Assembly: GCF_002723975.1 (NCBI RefSeq)
Contig: NZ_BEWO01000009.1
Span: forward strand, 62,001 to 126,000
Reading direction: 5' to 3'
DNA: 64,000 nucleotides
Source: Gluconobacter japonicus
GTDB lineage: Bacteria; Pseudomonadota; Alphaproteobacteria; Acetobacterales; Acetobacteraceae
Both the position numbers and the translations under genes were made by a program. The notes under the pieces are model-generated. The model did not search any database and had not been told where the DNA came from. It worked only from the letters and a program-made list of their open reading frames with translations. This document shows positions 45,472-50,564 of the stretch, one piece after another (position 1 is the stretch's first letter; the number at the start of each line of letters is the position of its first letter).

Positions 45472-45548
45472 CGGAGTGTAGCTCAGCCTGGTAGAGCACT
45501 GTGTTCGGGACGCAGGGGCCGGAGGTTCGAATCCTCTCACTCCGACCA
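45472..45548 (+). tRNA. tRNA-Pro (anticodon CGG)
   Basis: A 77-base cloverleaf: acceptor CGGAGTG paired with CACTCCG, D-arm with AGCTCAGCCTGGTAGAGC, anticodon arm CTGTG-TTCGGGA-CGCAG with anticodon CGG, T-arm GGAGG-TTCGAAT-CCTCT, and an encoded CCA end. G at the first acceptor position is replaced by C, as expected for tRNA-Pro. Weak hairpins follow (45566-45604). No second copy of the 3' end was seen in the window. Confidence 0.95.
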
Positions 45549-45647: not shown

Positions 45648-46259
45648 TCAGTACTCATGTAGTCCTACGAATGGACGAACAGGCTGATCGGCTTTGCATA
45701 GTTTCAAAACATCCAGCTTTTGAAGCTCCAGAATATGCGCCGCCAACGTCTGCCGAGACATCAGAATTTTCTCCCCTTCGCTTTCACGAATAGTGTCGGA
45801 CTGGCTCATCAAAGCCCCTGCATATTCAACCTCACGCTGCATTTCTGCATCCGGCAACGCAGAGAGAGGCACAAACTGCACGGGCAAACTCAATTGCTGT
45901 GTTTTTGAACGGCTGGCCTCTGCCGTAATGCCCAGAACAGGAACGCTCGTCAGGGCCGAAACAGAAAAAGAACCAGACTGGGTCAGAGTACCATTCAATT
46001 GCATGGCTACAGGTCCGGAAACAAGCGCAACAACAGGGTCCACGTTTCGCTGCGCACATTGCAACGCACGAACATTGGCATCAAAATGGGCTGTCTGCGC
46101 TTCAGACCAGTTCTGCACATCCGAAGCGCTTACAACACCCGCTTTCGTCAGGTCTTTTTGAACACCAGCCAGTGCAGCGCTAATTGAAGTCTGCGCACCG
46201 CTGGTAAAGACACAACCCGACAGCAAAAGCCATACGGGCAAAACATAGAACAACCTCAT
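45648..46259 (-). CDS. lipoprotein paired with a papain-like peptidase (possibly Trypco2-like domain)
   Basis: A 203-residue lipoprotein: signal with lipobox LLSGC (Cys15), a helical segment SISAALAGVQKDLTKAG, then a beta-rich part GPVAMQLNGTLTQSGSFSV, ITAEASRSKTQQLSLPVQF, and a C-terminal helical tail. The helix plus beta-strand pattern with the A-x-x-S-x-x-x-T-Q motif reminds me of the trypsin-co-occurring domain 2; that is a recollection of pattern, not a search result. ATG 46259 overlaps the peptidase stop (ATGA), so translation is coupled. The upstream in-frame extension lies inside the peptidase gene and was rejected. Function unknown. Confidence 0.72.
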   Translation of the reverse strand: MRLFYVLPVWLLLSGCVFTSGAQTSISAALAGVQKDLTKAGVVSASDVQNWSEAQTAHFDANVRALQCAQRNVDPVVALVSGPVAMQLNGTLTQSGSFSVSALTSVPVLGITAEASRSKTQQLSLPVQFVPLSALPDAEMQREVEYAGALMSQSDTIRESEGEKILMSRQTLAAHILELQKLDVLKLCKADQPVRPFVGLHEY

Positions 46260-47008
46260 GCCGCACTCATTTCCGCAACGAGTGCATGAAGATCTTCTGC
46301 TTTGGGAGAAACACCGCACACTGTCAGCCAATTCTGCCGACTGACGAGCCCGTAAGCCTCATCGCAGATCCGCAGCAATGTATCCCAGGGCATAAATGTC
46401 CGATTGCCCCATGTATTGAAAAATACACCCTCAGCCGTGTAACCCGTCAGTGCGATCGCATGACCGCCTACATAGGCATGATCCTGAATGGCGTCCCAAT
46501 CCCAATTCGCACCCAATGGAAGATCAAGGAACCCACGAGGCACCTGCACCCCCGCCAGAACGCCTCCAAGATAAGAAATACCCCGCTTGATCCCATTGAC
46601 GGAATGGGAATCAATAACCCCGTAGGCCGTCAGATAATCTTTGGTCTGACCAGGCCGTACAAAGCCGTTTCTCTTCCAGTATCCCAACTGTTCAAGCAGA
46701 ACAGTGCCATTATCGTTCTGGCCGGTTACCGGATCAAATCCCGTAACTGCGCCATAATTCTGCAGAACCTGCTCGCTGGACAGAAGAACCAGCCCCTGAG
46801 CCGCCTTGGTCCAGGTAGCCGTAAGAGCCGCGTGCGCAGCAAACGCACAGCACCCGAACCGATCATTGCCCCACATTTGATAAGGCACACCTTCAGACCA
46901 GTCCTGACTTTCCGGAACCTCTGGAACACGCGCCGCCAGAACGGGCGAAAACCGATAGGTCCGCGCATCATAACGGGGTGGCAGCTTTCCGAGCCTGCGT
47001 TCCATCAT
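46256..47008 (-). CDS. papain-like cysteine peptidase family protein
   Basis: A 250-residue protein with the C1-like order of residues: the Cys54 region in MWGNDRFGCCAFAAHAA, catalytic His183 in YVGGHAIALTGYT and Asn198 in VFFNTWGN. Phage and prophage relatives show the same GND...G-x-C pattern. No signal peptide is present, so cytosolic unless released by another route. ATG 47008 or the adjacent ATG 47005, with GGAG nine bases upstream. It is coupled to the lipoprotein gene downstream and separated from levansucrase upstream by a terminator. Substrate unknown; it could cleave protein or peptidoglycan peptides. Confidence 0.75.
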   Translation of the reverse strand: MMERRLGKLPPRYDARTYRFSPVLAARVPEVPESQDWSEGVPYQMWGNDRFGCCAFAAHAALTATWTKAAQGLVLLSSEQVLQNYGAVTGFDPVTGQNDNGTVLLEQLGYWKRNGFVRPGQTKDYLTAYGVIDSHSVNGIKRGISYLGGVLAGVQVPRGFLDLPLGANWDWDAIQDHAYVGGHAIALTGYTAEGVFFNTWGNRTFMPWDTLLRICDEAYGLVSRQNWLTVCGVSPKAEDLHALVAEMSAA

Positions 47009-47023
47009 CAATCAACGCTCCAG

Positions 47024-47060
47024 AAAAATGAAAAGCCACCCCCACGCAGGGGATGGCTTT
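47024..47060 (-). terminator. levansucrase gene terminator
   Basis: On the minus strand AAAGCCATCCCC pairs with GGGGGTGGCTTT (47032-47060), followed by TTCATTTTTC. It lies between the levansucrase stop and the peptidase start, so the peptidase needs its own promoter or read-through. Confidence 0.85.
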
Positions 47061-47113
47061 CACAATGTCTCAATCCCGATTTTCAGGCAGAACGAACCCT
47101 GCCTTTATAAAAA

Positions 47114-48451
47114 TCAGGCGCGAACGTCATAGGCCAGAGAAGTCGGCCAGGCGACCTGCGCAAAAACCTGAGCATAGTCATGAACTTCCGTCAGGAACGT
47201 CCGGTCACCATCAAGAACCAGACGCACCGTCGGAGCAAGCGTGCCGCCAATACGATAGGTATCAGGGCTTTCAGCATTCTGGCCAGCCGCCGGAATCGTA
47301 TCGATAAACGACTGAACGTAGCCCTGCGCATCCACAAAATGCGAATACGTCGAATACGGCTGCGAAGACGGGTTACCAAGTACCAGACCCGAGCTGTTCA
47401 AAGGCTTGTAGGGACCAAAAATTCCCTTCTCGGAGACGAAACCATACACACCATCAGGGCCCGTACTTTTGCCCGTATAGGTGGAATGATGGCTGATGGT
47501 GAACAGATAGGTCAGACCGTCCTTGAAGACGAAATGCGGACGCTCCGTCTGGTCATTCACGCCCAGAGCCGTCACCAGAGCAGGCATCAGCTCCCAACGG
47601 GAATAATCGCCCTTACGCCAGTTGGACACACACCGGGAGAGACCGATTGCCGCAGCACCATATTGCGCACCCGGATCCACCGCATAACCTGGCGGAACAT
47701 GGCCCATCTCGTCAGAACCGACGACAAACTGCCCCCGCATGCCAGGAACATTGCCTTCGAACAGCGTATAAAGCTCGCCATCGCCCGGATTGATGAACGG
47801 CTGCGGGTCACGAAAATCGAAATACGCATCTTCAGAAGCGTTGGCATAATAAACGCCATCCGCCTTGAACATTTCCGTGCTGGCCGAGAAGCCCTCAAAC
47901 CAGACACCCTTGTCATCAGCATGAATGGTGCCGGAGCAAACAGCCGGAACAGAATTACCATCCGGCGCACCAACGGACGTGTAGAACATGTCGACCTTGT
48001 TCTCGCTGCCTTCACGCATCACCAGAGAACCGGACCACTCCCAGGGACGCAGATCAGCAGACGTCTGAAACAGGCGGCCACCCCATGTCCACTCAACACC
48101 GTCGGCGCTGTACCAATAGCCGATATAGGCGCGATCATTGCGGGAGTGCCATTCGTCATAAATCTTGGCATTGGTCTTGTCGATTTTGTCCACAGCCAGG
48201 GACCAGAGAACAAACCAGCCCTTATACGTCACAGTGCGCATATGCATGTCACGAAGGGTGCCACTGTCCCAGATCATCACATCGTTAGACATGACCGGGA
48301 AATTGTAGTCGATTACCGGCATTGTCGTTGTCGGATCGTCCGTACGAACCTTCAGCGCGTCAGCAATCGTCCACCGGGACGAGCGATAGTTCGGAAGCAC
48401 GCGACGAACAGCCGTGTGCTGATCCAGAATTCGGCTGGAAATAGCATTCAT
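47114..48451 (-). CDS. levansucrase (GH68), signal-less
   Basis: Transfers fructose from sucrose to levan or water. The 445-residue GH68 five-bladed propeller shows the nucleophile Asp in VMIWDSGTLRD (residues about 58-68), the WEWSGSLVM block, the stabiliser Asp in DFRDPQPFINP, and the acid/base Glu in NDQTERPHFVF. The N-terminus, MNAISSRILDQHTAVRR, has no hydrophobic signal, as in the Zymomonas enzyme, which is nonetheless secreted. It follows the holin-like gene by 43 bases on one transcript. Export, if it occurs, must be by a non-Sec path. Confidence 0.95.
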   Translation of the reverse strand: MNAISSRILDQHTAVRRVLPNYRSSRWTIADALKVRTDDPTTTMPVIDYNFPVMSNDVMIWDSGTLRDMHMRTVTYKGWFVLWSLAVDKIDKTNAKIYDEWHSRNDRAYIGYWYSADGVEWTWGGRLFQTSADLRPWEWSGSLVMREGSENKVDMFYTSVGAPDGNSVPAVCSGTIHADDKGVWFEGFSASTEMFKADGVYYANASEDAYFDFRDPQPFINPGDGELYTLFEGNVPGMRGQFVVGSDEMGHVPPGYAVDPGAQYGAAAIGLSRCVSNWRKGDYSRWELMPALVTALGVNDQTERPHFVFKDGLTYLFTISHHSTYTGKSTGPDGVYGFVSEKGIFGPYKPLNSSGLVLGNPSSQPYSTYSHFVDAQGYVQSFIDTIPAAGQNAESPDTYRIGGTLAPTVRLVLDGDRTFLTEVHDYAQVFAQVAWPTSLAYDVRA

Positions 48452-48494
48452 ATTTTCATGATCCGTATTGAATAGTGTTTGAAAAATAACCCTG

Positions 48495-48812
48495 TCAGGC
48501 GCCTTGTTGCGGAGCCTTGCCAGGAGAAGGATCAGTTGCTCCCGGAGCAGCGTCTGTTTTCACGCTCTCTCCGTCTTTCGGGACAACGACCTTCTTGCTG
48601 ACCTGCCGTTCCAGACGGTTGGCAGCCCAGCCAATATTCAGCCCCAGAAGGGCCACCAGACGGTAAATTCCGTTGAATCGTGATGTATTCTGTGGGGGAG
48701 GCAAAAAGACCGTAACCAGTTTGCATCCAATAATCAGTAAAGCCACCCACAGCTCATATCGAGCCGGGATGTCGGCGAGCAGACCAGAAAGGTCGAAACC
48801 GGAAATATCCAC
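48495..48812 (-). CDS. small two-helix membrane protein, holin-like
   Basis: A 105-residue protein with two membrane segments, YELWVALLIIGCKLVTVFL (residues about 19-37) and a second around IYRLVALLGLNIGWAANRL, then a charged, Pro/Ala-rich tail. Size, topology and the PPP turn between helices resemble class II holins and similar phage lysis proteins. GTG 48812 has AGGA nine bases before it; an in-frame ATG at 48854 lies in the loop of the terminator hairpin and is not credible. It leads the levansucrase transcript. Function is inferred from topology only. Confidence 0.65.
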   Translation of the reverse strand: MDISGFDLSGLLADIPARYELWVALLIIGCKLVTVFLPPPQNTSRFNGIYRLVALLGLNIGWAANRLERQVSKKVVVPKDGESVKTDAAPGATDPSPGKAPQQGA

Positions 48813-48836
48813 ACTCTGAAATCCTGCTTGGCGCAC

Positions 48837-48871
48837 AAAAAAAAGAGGCTGCATCCATCGGGATGAGCCTC
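48837..48871 (-). terminator. leader terminator / attenuator ahead of the levansucrase transcript
   Basis: On the minus strand GAGGCT pairs with AGCCTC across a 15-base loop and is followed by eight Ts, only about 25 bases before the first gene. No upstream gene needs it, so it is either the end of a small RNA or a transcription attenuator. A TGAGCC in the early leader (48926-48931) could pair with GGCTCA of the 5' arm to form an antiterminator. Confidence 0.65.
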
Positions 48872-48939
48872 TCGTAAAATCTTATTTTCAATATGAATTA
48901 TCGAACCATCAGCTAAGCGACTTATGGCTCAATGCCACA

Positions 48940-48968
48940 GTTATATGAAAAATCCGGATGCAGTTCAA
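48940..48968 (-). promoter_or_regulatory. promoter of the levansucrase leader
   Basis: TTGAAC (48963-48968) and TATAAC (48940-48945) on the minus strand are exactly 17 bases apart, a good sigma-70-type promoter. Transcription would start near 48933 and produce a leader of about 100 bases containing the hairpin. Confidence 0.7.
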
Positions 48969-49085
48969 GCGTAAAATGTCAGATACGCCCAAGATGAGTT
49001 GAAACCTCTCCTGCACACCCCTAATTTCGACATTGGGAAAGTCTCTTTTTTCCCAAAGAGACATCGACGAGAGATCACATCCATC

Positions 49086-49472
49086 ATGACGATCCGTTTA
49101 ACGCGATCCGCACTGGCTTTTGCAGCCCTGCTAACCGCTACTCCAGCCCTTGCCGAGCCAGGCGGCTGTATCAAATACGGCGCAGCCGGTGCTGTCGGCG
49201 GTCACCTTGCCAATCACCATGCCGTTGTCGGTGCCATGGGAGGATGTGCTGCCGGCATGTACCGCCGTCATCTGTATCGCAAGGATCTGCGCGAGAAAGC
49301 AGCTCTTTGGGACAAGGAACACCCAGCAGACCCGAATGCCAGCTGGTGGCAGCGTCATCATGATGCAGCATCCACCAAGCAGAAAGCAGAATGGTATGAC
49401 GCCGAACACCCTGAACCAGGCCCCAATACACCGGCGCCTGCGCCCCAGGCTCAGCCCAACCAACACTTCTGA
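49086..49472 (+). CDS. small secreted glycine-zipper-like protein
   Basis: A 128-residue exported protein. The signal peptide ends near TPALA-EPGG, followed by YGAAGAVGGHLANHHAVVGAMGGCAAG, which has the small-residue spacing of glycine zippers and two cysteines, then a charged helix (RRHLYRKDLREKAAL) and a Pro-rich tail with PAPAPQAQP. Similar short proteins are frequent in acetic acid bacteria but uncharacterised. ATG 49086 follows GAGAGATC. Divergent from the levansucrase leader. Confidence 0.78.
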   Translation: MTIRLTRSALAFAALLTATPALAEPGGCIKYGAAGAVGGHLANHHAVVGAMGGCAAGMYRRHLYRKDLREKAALWDKEHPADPNASWWQRHHDAASTKQKAEWYDAEHPEPGPNTPAPAPQAQPNQHF

Positions 49473-49532: not shown

Positions 49533-50564
49533 TCAGGAAAACTGAAATCCCTTAAGCGCAGACCGGGAAAGACCCTCCAAAAGGTCGATGGCTTCGTCCG
49601 TATCGTTCAAACACGGAATCATGGCGAACTCTTCACCGCCAGCATGCATGAATTCCTCACGAAGCTCATTGCCAATTTCGTCGAGTGTCTCAATACAATC
49701 CGACATAAAGCCGGGCATAATCACCGCAATCTTGGTGACCCCCTGCTTGGGCAGCGCGGTAACATAAGGTGCCGTATAAGGCTGGATCCACTCCAGCGGC
49801 CCAAAGCGAGACTGGAATGTGAGCGGCATCTGCTCATCACTAAATCCCAATGCTTTCCGCAAGGCTACAATCGTACGCTGACACTCTTCCTGATAGGAAT
49901 CGCCTTTTTCAACGCAGGTTTTCGGCAATCCATGAAAGGAGGCAACAATAGCCTGAGGCTTGAAAGACAAACCCTCCAAAGTCTTACGAACAGACTGTTC
50001 CAACGCACGGACAAACAACGGGTGATCCGGAAAAGACGGCATCGTCAGCACAGAAGGCTGACGGCGTAACTTCATAAGTGCACGGAAAAGATGATCGTTC
50101 GCTGTCGCAGTCGTCGTCGCTGAATACTGCGGATAAAGCGGAATGCTGATGATCCGGTCACACCCTTTATCCATCAGGCTTTCCACACCCTGTGCCACAG
50201 ACGGCTGCCCGTAACGCATTCCCCATTCAACAGGCACGCCATCGCTCTCGAGACGCAAAGCCAGCTTCTCAGCCTGTCGCTGGGTATAAACTCGCAATGG
50301 CGAAGCATTCTCTTCGCGATCCCAGATGCGTGCATAATTAGCACCACTGGCGAATGGACGTTTTGTAAGGATGATGCCCTGCAAAATGGGCTGCCAGATC
50401 AACGGCGGACTTTCAATCACGCGTCGATCAGAAAGAAACTCACTCAGGTAACGACGTACAGCAAAGTAGCCAGTATCGTCAGGTGTCCCGAGATTGAGGA
50501 GAAGAACGCCAGTCCGCCCATGAGGAGGAGAAGCATTGCGTGGTTTTTTGAAAAAAAAGGCCAT
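49533..50564 (-). CDS. hemH: ferrochelatase
   Basis: Inserts Fe2+ into protoporphyrin IX in the last step of haem synthesis. The 343-residue protein has GVLLLNLGTPD at the start, the RYLSEFLSDRRV block, IPLYPQYSATTTA, IVASFHGLPKTCVEKGD with the catalytic His, and GFMSDCIETLDEIGNELRE with the conserved Glu. The start follows AAGGGCACT. High demand for cytochromes in this oxidative bacterium fits the gene. Confidence 0.97.
   Translation of the reverse strand: MAFFFKKPRNASPPHGRTGVLLLNLGTPDDTGYFAVRRYLSEFLSDRRVIESPPLIWQPILQGIILTKRPFASGANYARIWDREENASPLRVYTQRQAEKLALRLESDGVPVEWGMRYGQPSVAQGVESLMDKGCDRIISIPLYPQYSATTTATANDHLFRALMKLRRQPSVLTMPSFPDHPLFVRALEQSVRKTLEGLSFKPQAIVASFHGLPKTCVEKGDSYQEECQRTIVALRKALGFSDEQMPLTFQSRFGPLEWIQPYTAPYVTALPKQGVTKIAVIMPGFMSDCIETLDEIGNELREEFMHAGGEEFAMIPCLNDTDEAIDLLEGLSRSALKGFQFS

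Follow-up and report, generated by a model that had tools for sequence, protein, structure and literature searches.

How does a levansucrase without a signal peptide leave the cell, and do the phage-like genes beside it help it out? This question is raised by a locus of Gluconobacter japonicus, which we examined within a window of 64,000 nucleotides (assembly GCF_002723975.1, contig NZ_BEWO01000009.1, positions 62,001 to 126,000; coordinates below are those of the window). The exit route of Gluconobacter levansucrases has been called an open question (PMC7272483; here and below, papers are cited from excerpts of their text). The locus comprises, all on the minus strand, a promoter, a terminator-bearing leader, a small holin-position membrane protein gene (HOL), a family GH68 levansucrase gene, a papain-fold cysteine peptidase gene (PEP) and a lipoprotein gene (LIP). 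The first-pass annotation had located each of these parts correctly and proposed that they form a holin- and peptidase-assisted export module for the levansucrase. Phage ancestry, selection and repeated linkage of the genes are borne out by our analysis, but an export module dedicated to GH68 is not. We consider it rather probable that phage lysis and phage-end genes have long persisted here as a remnant at a tRNA-Pro integration hotspot, with the levansucrase as a tenant.

The same site in other Gluconobacter species provides the central evidence. A signal-less GH68 gene was found in 21 of 26 genomes of the genus, four others having only a more distant type and one having none. Twenty tRNA-Pro loci with a signal-less GH68 (19 fetched, plus the window) were compared: five read HOL-GH68-PEP-LIP, two HOL-GH68 and 13 GH68 alone. 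Absence of the neighbours from close relatives had been named beforehand as evidence against the export module, and this is the state of those 13 loci, while seven of the 20 keep HOL. Neither tblastn nor a profile search found HOL remnants in any of the 13, and the short frames of the hemH-GH68 spacers held none in the 11 of 13 examined (best E 1.1). Four further species, whose only GH68 is of the distant type and located elsewhere, read HOL-p91-p75-tRNA-Pro at the same site next to hemH (L008-L011). Since these species keep HOL here without a signal-less GH68, HOL appears to be older than, or independent of, GH68. The 13 loci without HOL, PEP and LIP, and these four species with HOL, argue against a module dedicated to levansucrase export. 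The p91 and p75 genes also follow GH24-HOL elsewhere, in the genomes of G. wancherniae, G. cerinus and G. frateurii (L161, L202, L209). The HOL-p91-p75 arrangement of L008-L011 is a muramidase-free remnant in which p75, by eye, looks like a membrane-anchored, spanin-like coil. One genome (G004) has no GH68 match, no HOL and no tRNA between hemH and etfA; another (G009) was left uncounted, its GH68 lying at a contig edge.

On a tree of EtfA and HemH, the presence of HOL, of GH68 and of PEP-LIP each needs one change. Midpoint rooting suggests that an ancestral HOL was lost once, GH68 was gained (or lost) once and PEP-LIP was gained once. A single clade of all HOL copies at the site was not rejected (p 0.17). 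The Gluconobacter GH68 sequences, however, do not form one clade by the approximately unbiased (AU) test (p 3e-48): because the window clade's GH68 and the others are not sister groups, the gene was probably exchanged in place, the exchange falling on the branch where PEP-LIP also appeared.

The phage-lysis ancestry of HOL, PEP and LIP, as first proposed, is confirmed by sequence comparison, their homologs standing in phages and proviral contigs near endolysins. Twenty regions were fetched from elsewhere in Gluconobacter around matches to PEP or HOL, and 15 of them show the order HOL, a small lipoprotein gene (X), PEP and LIP; in three of the 15, a GH24 lysozyme gene (PF00959 and endolysin PHROGs) lies directly before HOL. 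We term these regions prophage-like because this cassette also stands in IMG/VR contigs, where 112 PEP loci were found, 80 were kept and 14 of those kept contain HOL. Other viral contigs carry PEP near GH24 genes (two Pfam-confirmed), in 11 viral loci a nearby gene belongs to a family of which the member tested contains a PG_binding_3 domain and matches endolysin PHROGs, and phage ctsHD2 has PEP overlapping an Amidase_2 gene. For HOL, the phage match is a gene of Acetobacter phage phiAX1 (1e-8); PEP and LIP match phrog_19005 (2.4e-24) and phrog_28078 (2.5e-47), and the overlapping PEP-LIP pair recurs in Komagataeibacter phages phiKX1 and phiKM1. In phiKX1, LIP faces the 3' end of a tRNA gene about 1 kb away, with a small open reading frame (ORF) between them; in phiKM1, an integrase gene intervenes. 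PEP accompanies endolysins in phages, either sharing a cassette with GH24 lysozyme or adjoining other endolysins, and the idea that a cysteine peptidase had replaced the muramidase is unsupported. Members of the PEP family are common among environmental viral contigs (L268-L332), in some with PG_binding_3 or GH24 endolysin genes nearby. In G. wancherniae, the GH24 lysozyme gene (L161 9781-10307), which stands next to a HOL homolog, is split across two frames. One viral neighbour matched a phrog named after enoyl-CoA hydratase, and this match was not used.

These genes are not decaying, as judged from their low dN/dS, which indicates purifying selection. Pairwise ratios within the five-species clade are 0.11-0.27 for HOL, 0.06-0.11 for PEP, 0.08-0.19 for LIP and 0.02-0.06 for GH68, the PEP and LIP ratios being rough in the wider pairs, where dS exceeds 1. 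The comparison genes gave 0.02-0.04 (etfA) and 0.12-0.20 (lepB, 4 of 6 pairs computable).

The levansucrase gene (47114-48451) encodes 445 residues with a mass of 49,538 Da and matches PF02435 with an E value of 1.9e-129. In line with the first-pass annotation, we found no signal peptide; the N-terminus is not hydrophobic, with a highest 19-residue mean of 0.49 within the first 60 residues. Its closest named relative is that of G. frateurii NBRC 3264 (99 percent). The mass is also close to that of LsrA of G. japonicus LASM12 (49,570 Da; PMC10819292), although the window genome has one GH68 match and LASM12 two. Reports on secretion differ between strains. In LASM12, the signal-less LsrA was undetected in any fraction and the secreted enzyme is the signal-bearing LsrB (PMC10819292), whereas LevS of G. 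japonicus LMG 1417 is reported to be secreted without a signal peptide (PMC10384002, PMC10819292), the secreted amount more than doubling on overproduction from a plasmid (PMC10384002). Levansucrase release is further reported for G. albidus TMW 2.1191 (PMC7272483), and another strain of that species, NBRC 3250, is among our loci with GH68 alone. The same paper states that levansucrase is strictly single-copy in all Gluconobacter strains, whereas GH68 matches in the genomes studied here range from none to four. In the literature searched we found no link between levansucrase and holins in acetic acid bacteria, nor does one occur in the excerpt of PMC6528568, which mentions levansucrase, prophage and Gluconobacter.

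HOL (48495-48812) was annotated as a two-helix holin-like protein. The two helices are there, but two transmembrane helices are insecure: residues 17-36 form one clear membrane helix (hydropathy to 2.0), and the second, at residues 47-73, is weaker (peak 1.1). The structure model is poor (pLDDT 54.7), and no holin family matched HOL in the family library searches. A holin-type role is thus suggested by gene position, with HOL homologs adjoining GH24 endolysins in prophage-like regions, and by one clear and one weak helix. The 105-residue form begins at a GTG codon at 48812; in the longer, 119-residue ORF, the first 14 codons overlap the leader terminator.

PEP (46256-47011) is predicted to be a C1A papain-like peptidase with a papain fold and catalytic Cys and His residues, which agrees with its first assignment. 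The AlphaFold2 model of this 250-residue protein, built from 51 sequences, has a pLDDT of 94.5 and a pTM of 0.92. Its best PDB match by Foldseek is the cysteine protease xylellain (3ois, E 3.3e-12), followed by mite allergens, cathepsins and plant papain-like enzymes, and a PEP profile also reaches xylellain by sequence (4.7e-7). Cys55 and His184 are invariant across the 51 aligned homologs; the equivalent of the papain Asn is replaced by Leu in the Komagataeibacter copies. LIP (45648-46259) carries the lipobox LLLSGC, and its start shares 4 bp with the stop of PEP, which agrees with the proposed coupling of peptidase and lipoprotein.

Upstream of HOL, a -35 hexamer TTGAAC (48963-48968) is followed, after a 17-nt spacer, by TATAAC (48945-48940) and a leader (48837-48939) composed of a 5' hairpin, UGGCAUUGAGCCA, and an intrinsic terminator (48873-48837). 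The program's consensus promoter scan did not list this TTGAAC-17-TATAAC pair. The -10 element and the leader motif after it are nonetheless conserved in 20 Gluconobacter loci, where HOL or GH68 follows them, and an alignment of 21 loci shows the hairpin, UGGCANNGAGCCA, and the terminator to be conserved; promoter and leader are therefore not chance, and the first-pass annotation was right about them. Four hairpin pairs are invariant in all 21 aligned loci, and terminator pairs are kept in 17-21 of 21 despite base changes. The exact motif occurs in the window genome only here, with two mismatches at two further places, and an Rfam search with the leader matched no family. Because the leader precedes HOL where HOL is present and GH68 otherwise, the two genes probably share it. 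The promoter and leader together (48837-48968) could be an attenuator or give rise to a small RNA of about 95 nt. A related hairpin precedes HOL in G022, a genome without signal-less GH68, and two loci from two species (L127, L128) have an additional hairpin between HOL and GH68. Downstream of GH68, an intrinsic terminator (47031-47061) is found in all five species that carry PEP-LIP here. As it splits GH68 from PEP-LIP, the two are probably separate transcription units, a correction to the first-pass annotation.

The first-pass annotation had made no use of the neighbouring tRNA-Pro(CGG) gene (45472-45548, plus strand), which forms a right boundary resembling an integration site. It is convergent with LIP, whose end lies 99 bp from the tRNA 3' end. 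The left boundary is a gene at 49533-50564 on the minus strand, which we take to be the ferrochelatase gene hemH; it is conserved in all 19 fetched tRNA-Pro loci, in L008-L011, and in G004 and G009. Between hemH and HOL lies a small gene (49089-49472), divergent from HOL and with a signal-peptide-like start, that is missing, as HOL is, from the GH68-only clade. A search of plasmid DNA returned 50 records, none with query coverage of 80 percent or more; the 20 listed match within GH68.

The search for this gene order beside GH68 in other Acetobacteraceae, as the first-pass annotation had suggested, gave a divided result. Of the GH68 loci compared, 37 were gathered with two peptide patterns and do not amount to a full census; L216, L217 and L218 repeat L178, L174 and L198 and were each counted once. 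In Komagataeibacter, HOL follows GH68 in 8 of 8 loci (the eighth, L215, being placed in the genus by the GH68 tree only). PEP comes next in four (a fifth has a PEP fragment where the contig ends) and LIP in four; L188 stops just after HOL, and neither PEP nor LIP was found in L175 and L197. Behind LIP, a tRNA-Arg gene follows in three of the four LIP-bearing loci, with LIP facing the tRNA 3' end. These GH68-HOL-PEP-LIP blocks are L178, L181, L182 and L215, three of them adjoining tRNA-Arg(CCG). A strong hairpin separates GH68 from HOL in all four Komagataeibacter loci inspected, so the two genes need not share a transcript there. In the single Tanticharoenia locus (L174 5992-7880), GH68 overlaps a homolog of the prophage lipoprotein X by 4 bp, with tRNA-Val just upstream. 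None of the genes was found at the signal-less loci of Acetobacter (0/8) or at four others (L194, L214, L219, L220). Loci of the other GH68 type, most of which have signal-peptide-like N-termini by eye, carry HOL, X or LIP in none of 25 cases; in one (L237 7132-9876), a signal-peptide-type GH68 is followed by a broken PEP and tRNA-Glu. AU tests on quick trees reject a single origin of the GH68-linked copies (PEP 1.6e-84, LIP 2e-4, HOL 2e-5), so the linkage arose at least twice. L165-L167, L176, L185 and L201, which repeat L125-L130, were left out of these trees; GH68_Knata, whose PEP is truncated where its contig stops, was omitted from the PEP tree.

Proximity to tRNA genes follows the signal-less type. 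A tRNA adjoins GH68 in all 20 tRNA-Pro loci; among the 20 fetched Gluconobacter loci it is tRNA-Pro(CGG) in 19 and tRNA-Thr in the remaining one, which is a second signal-less GH68 of G. cadivus (L136 8667-9938; repeated as L194) and stands outside the 20 tRNA-Pro loci. A tRNA lies about 2 kb beyond GH68 in three of eight Komagataeibacter loci and within 0.8 kb in three of eight Acetobacter loci, two of these being tRNA-Pro(CGG). Among the 25 loci of the other type, just one has a tRNA within 2 kb. These distances favour integration hotspots as the cause of the gene company. In Acetobacter estunensis, tRNA-Pro(CGG) lies about 0.65 kb downstream of a signal-less GH68 (L168 7974-8050, L170 2763-2839), with no lysis genes of these families between.

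The genes also keep company at the level of whole genomes. Within Gluconobacter, the genomes in which PEP and LIP were detected are the very 21 of 26 that have a signal-less GH68, a profile search adding a PEP fragment in G008. In a sample of 299 genomes of the family, PEP occurs in 61: in 10 of 10 genomes with a signal-less GH68 and 51 of 289 others (Fisher p 7e-8, kinship uncorrected). Of the 18 sampled genomes whose only GH68 is of the other type, however, nine also carry PEP or a piece of it (Fisher p 0.01, kinship uncorrected), and prophage load is a likely confounder of this co-occurrence.

If the neighbours were a domesticated lysis-type export system, HOL would open the inner membrane, be it in every cell or in a part of the population, the envelope would be loosened by PEP and LIP, and the levansucrase would exit; at loci lacking HOL, prophage holins would act in trans. 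We think this combination unlikely, though several results fit it. HOL or X stands beside a signal-less GH68 in Komagataeibacter, Gluconobacter (7/20) and Tanticharoenia and in none of the 25 loci of the other type, from more than one origin by the AU tests; HOL shares the GH68 leader; PEP and LIP follow the signal-less gene through the genus and PEP does so in the family sample; the genomes of all 13 GH68-only species contain HOL matches at other places; and secretion of LevS without a signal peptide is on record. Yet the co-occurrence within the genus amounts to one change on the tree, PEP or a piece of it extends in the family sample to half of the genomes having only the other type, and at the gene level 13 of 20 Gluconobacter loci, along with those of Acetobacter and the four others, do without all of these genes, whereas HOL persists in four species without the cargo. 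The window genome has no GH24 (PF00959) or GH108 (PF05838) muramidase, the only two hydrolase families sought genome-wide, and GH108 was accordingly dropped as a candidate for the missing hydrolase. Secretion reports point the same way: LsrA of LASM12 was not detected, and since plasmid overproduction more than doubled LevS secretion, a matched dose of HOL is not obviously limiting. Alternatively, GH68 itself may have spread among acetic acid bacteria as an end gene of tRNA-integrating temperate phages, its neighbours being the remains of the carrier. This is possible, if still on the doubtful side, and compatible with the remnant at a hotspot, which leaves the carrier open. It would explain why signal-less GH68 lies near tRNA-Pro, -Arg, -Val or -Thr in different genera or copies, a position rare for the other type, why the arrangement resembles phiKX1, and why the GH68 swap and the gain of PEP-LIP fall on one branch. 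Against it, no GH68 match was found among 50,697 phage records or, by a two-pattern scan, in IMG/VR, so that GH68 as an annotated phage gene was rejected, and no Acetobacter locus (0/8) has phage genes of these families. That the genes are chance neighbours sharing neither history nor function we regard as very improbable; the 13 bare congeneric loci would suit it, but recurrence in three genera, an order conserved over five species and purifying selection would not.

Several of our results also weigh against the phage remnant that we favour. HOL, PEP and LIP are each single-copy in the window genome, so its resident prophages do not supply them, and the only match to the tRNA-Pro 3' end in the window is the tRNA itself, with no att duplication. 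The absence of GH68 from the phage collections and the roughness of the wider PEP and LIP ratios count here too. So do the gene orders of Komagataeibacter and Tanticharoenia, which differ from that of the window: recurrence in other genera is not predicted by a relic alone, unless GH68 travels with phage ends. Given the repeated linkage in other genera and the link to tRNA sites, lysis-assisted release and a spread of GH68 along with phage ends are both still live readings.

As a remnant at an integration hotspot, the locus could have formed as follows. HOL would be left from a cassette of the GH24-HOL-p91-p75 type, and GH68 would have entered the slot behind it, under HOL's leader. On the branch to G. 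frateurii, G. thailandicus, G. cerinus and the window species, GH68 would have been swapped for another GH68 lineage, and PEP-LIP, a temperate-phage gene pair, would have arrived beside the tRNA. All four genes are now maintained by selection, and the leader terminator would limit a HOL-GH68 transcript. The levansucrase would be made in the cytoplasm and leave by a signal-independent route that needs no neighbours in cis, and PEP-LIP, as a separate unit, would probably be an envelope or lysis accessory. The case illustrates how selection can preserve phage lysis genes at a site that no longer holds the muramidase or the remaining phage. More tentatively, and on odds we consider poor, acetic acid bacteria may repeatedly have taken holin-cassette genes of phages into service next to signal-less levansucrases. 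The result would be a lysis-derived release route without a muramidase, its envelope step served by the papain-fold peptidase and lipoprotein. Variants of this route would be HOL upstream in Gluconobacter, HOL-PEP-LIP downstream in Komagataeibacter and lipoprotein X in Tanticharoenia. If true, such a route would answer how Gluconobacter levansucrases exit, the question left open in PMC7272483. One site in one genus offers the natural contrasts: HOL only, HOL-GH68, HOL-GH68-PEP-LIP and GH68 only.

Among known systems, type 10 secretion, exemplified by chitinase export in Serratia and Salmonella, is the obvious comparison. It is defined by a holin together with a peptidoglycan hydrolase (PMC10109510). 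The window locus resembles it in having phage-derived parts and a holin-position membrane gene beside the gene for a large signal-less extracellular enzyme, albeit one whose LASM12 counterpart went undetected. Homologs of HOL adjoin GH24 genes, but no holin family matched HOL and its model is poor. It differs in that a separate PEP-LIP unit, with a papain-fold cysteine peptidase, stands in place of a peptidoglycan hydrolase, and in that 13 of 20 congeneric loci carry the cargo without the module. The Zymomonas levansucrase is likewise signal-less, and ZliS is a phage-like muramidase. Levansucrase secretion is raised there by another gene, as shown for ZliE and ZliS (PMC3712917, PMC8102297); a factor of the ZliS type has no PF00959 counterpart in the window genome. 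With xylellain and other C1A proteases, PEP shares the fold, Cys55, His184 and an NTWG motif, but it belongs to a phage family, shows no visible signal peptide and is only 12 to 18 percent identical in the Foldseek matches listed. The closest relatives are the prophage cassettes of acetic acid bacteria (GH24-HOL-X-PEP-LIP and GH24-HOL-p91-p75) and phages phiKX1, phiKM1 and phiAX1, which have homologous HOL, PEP and LIP genes, the PEP-LIP overlap and the position on the tRNA side. Compared with these, the window locus is without GH24 and X, holds GH68 in the slot between HOL and PEP, and has ordinary chromosomal genes on both sides.

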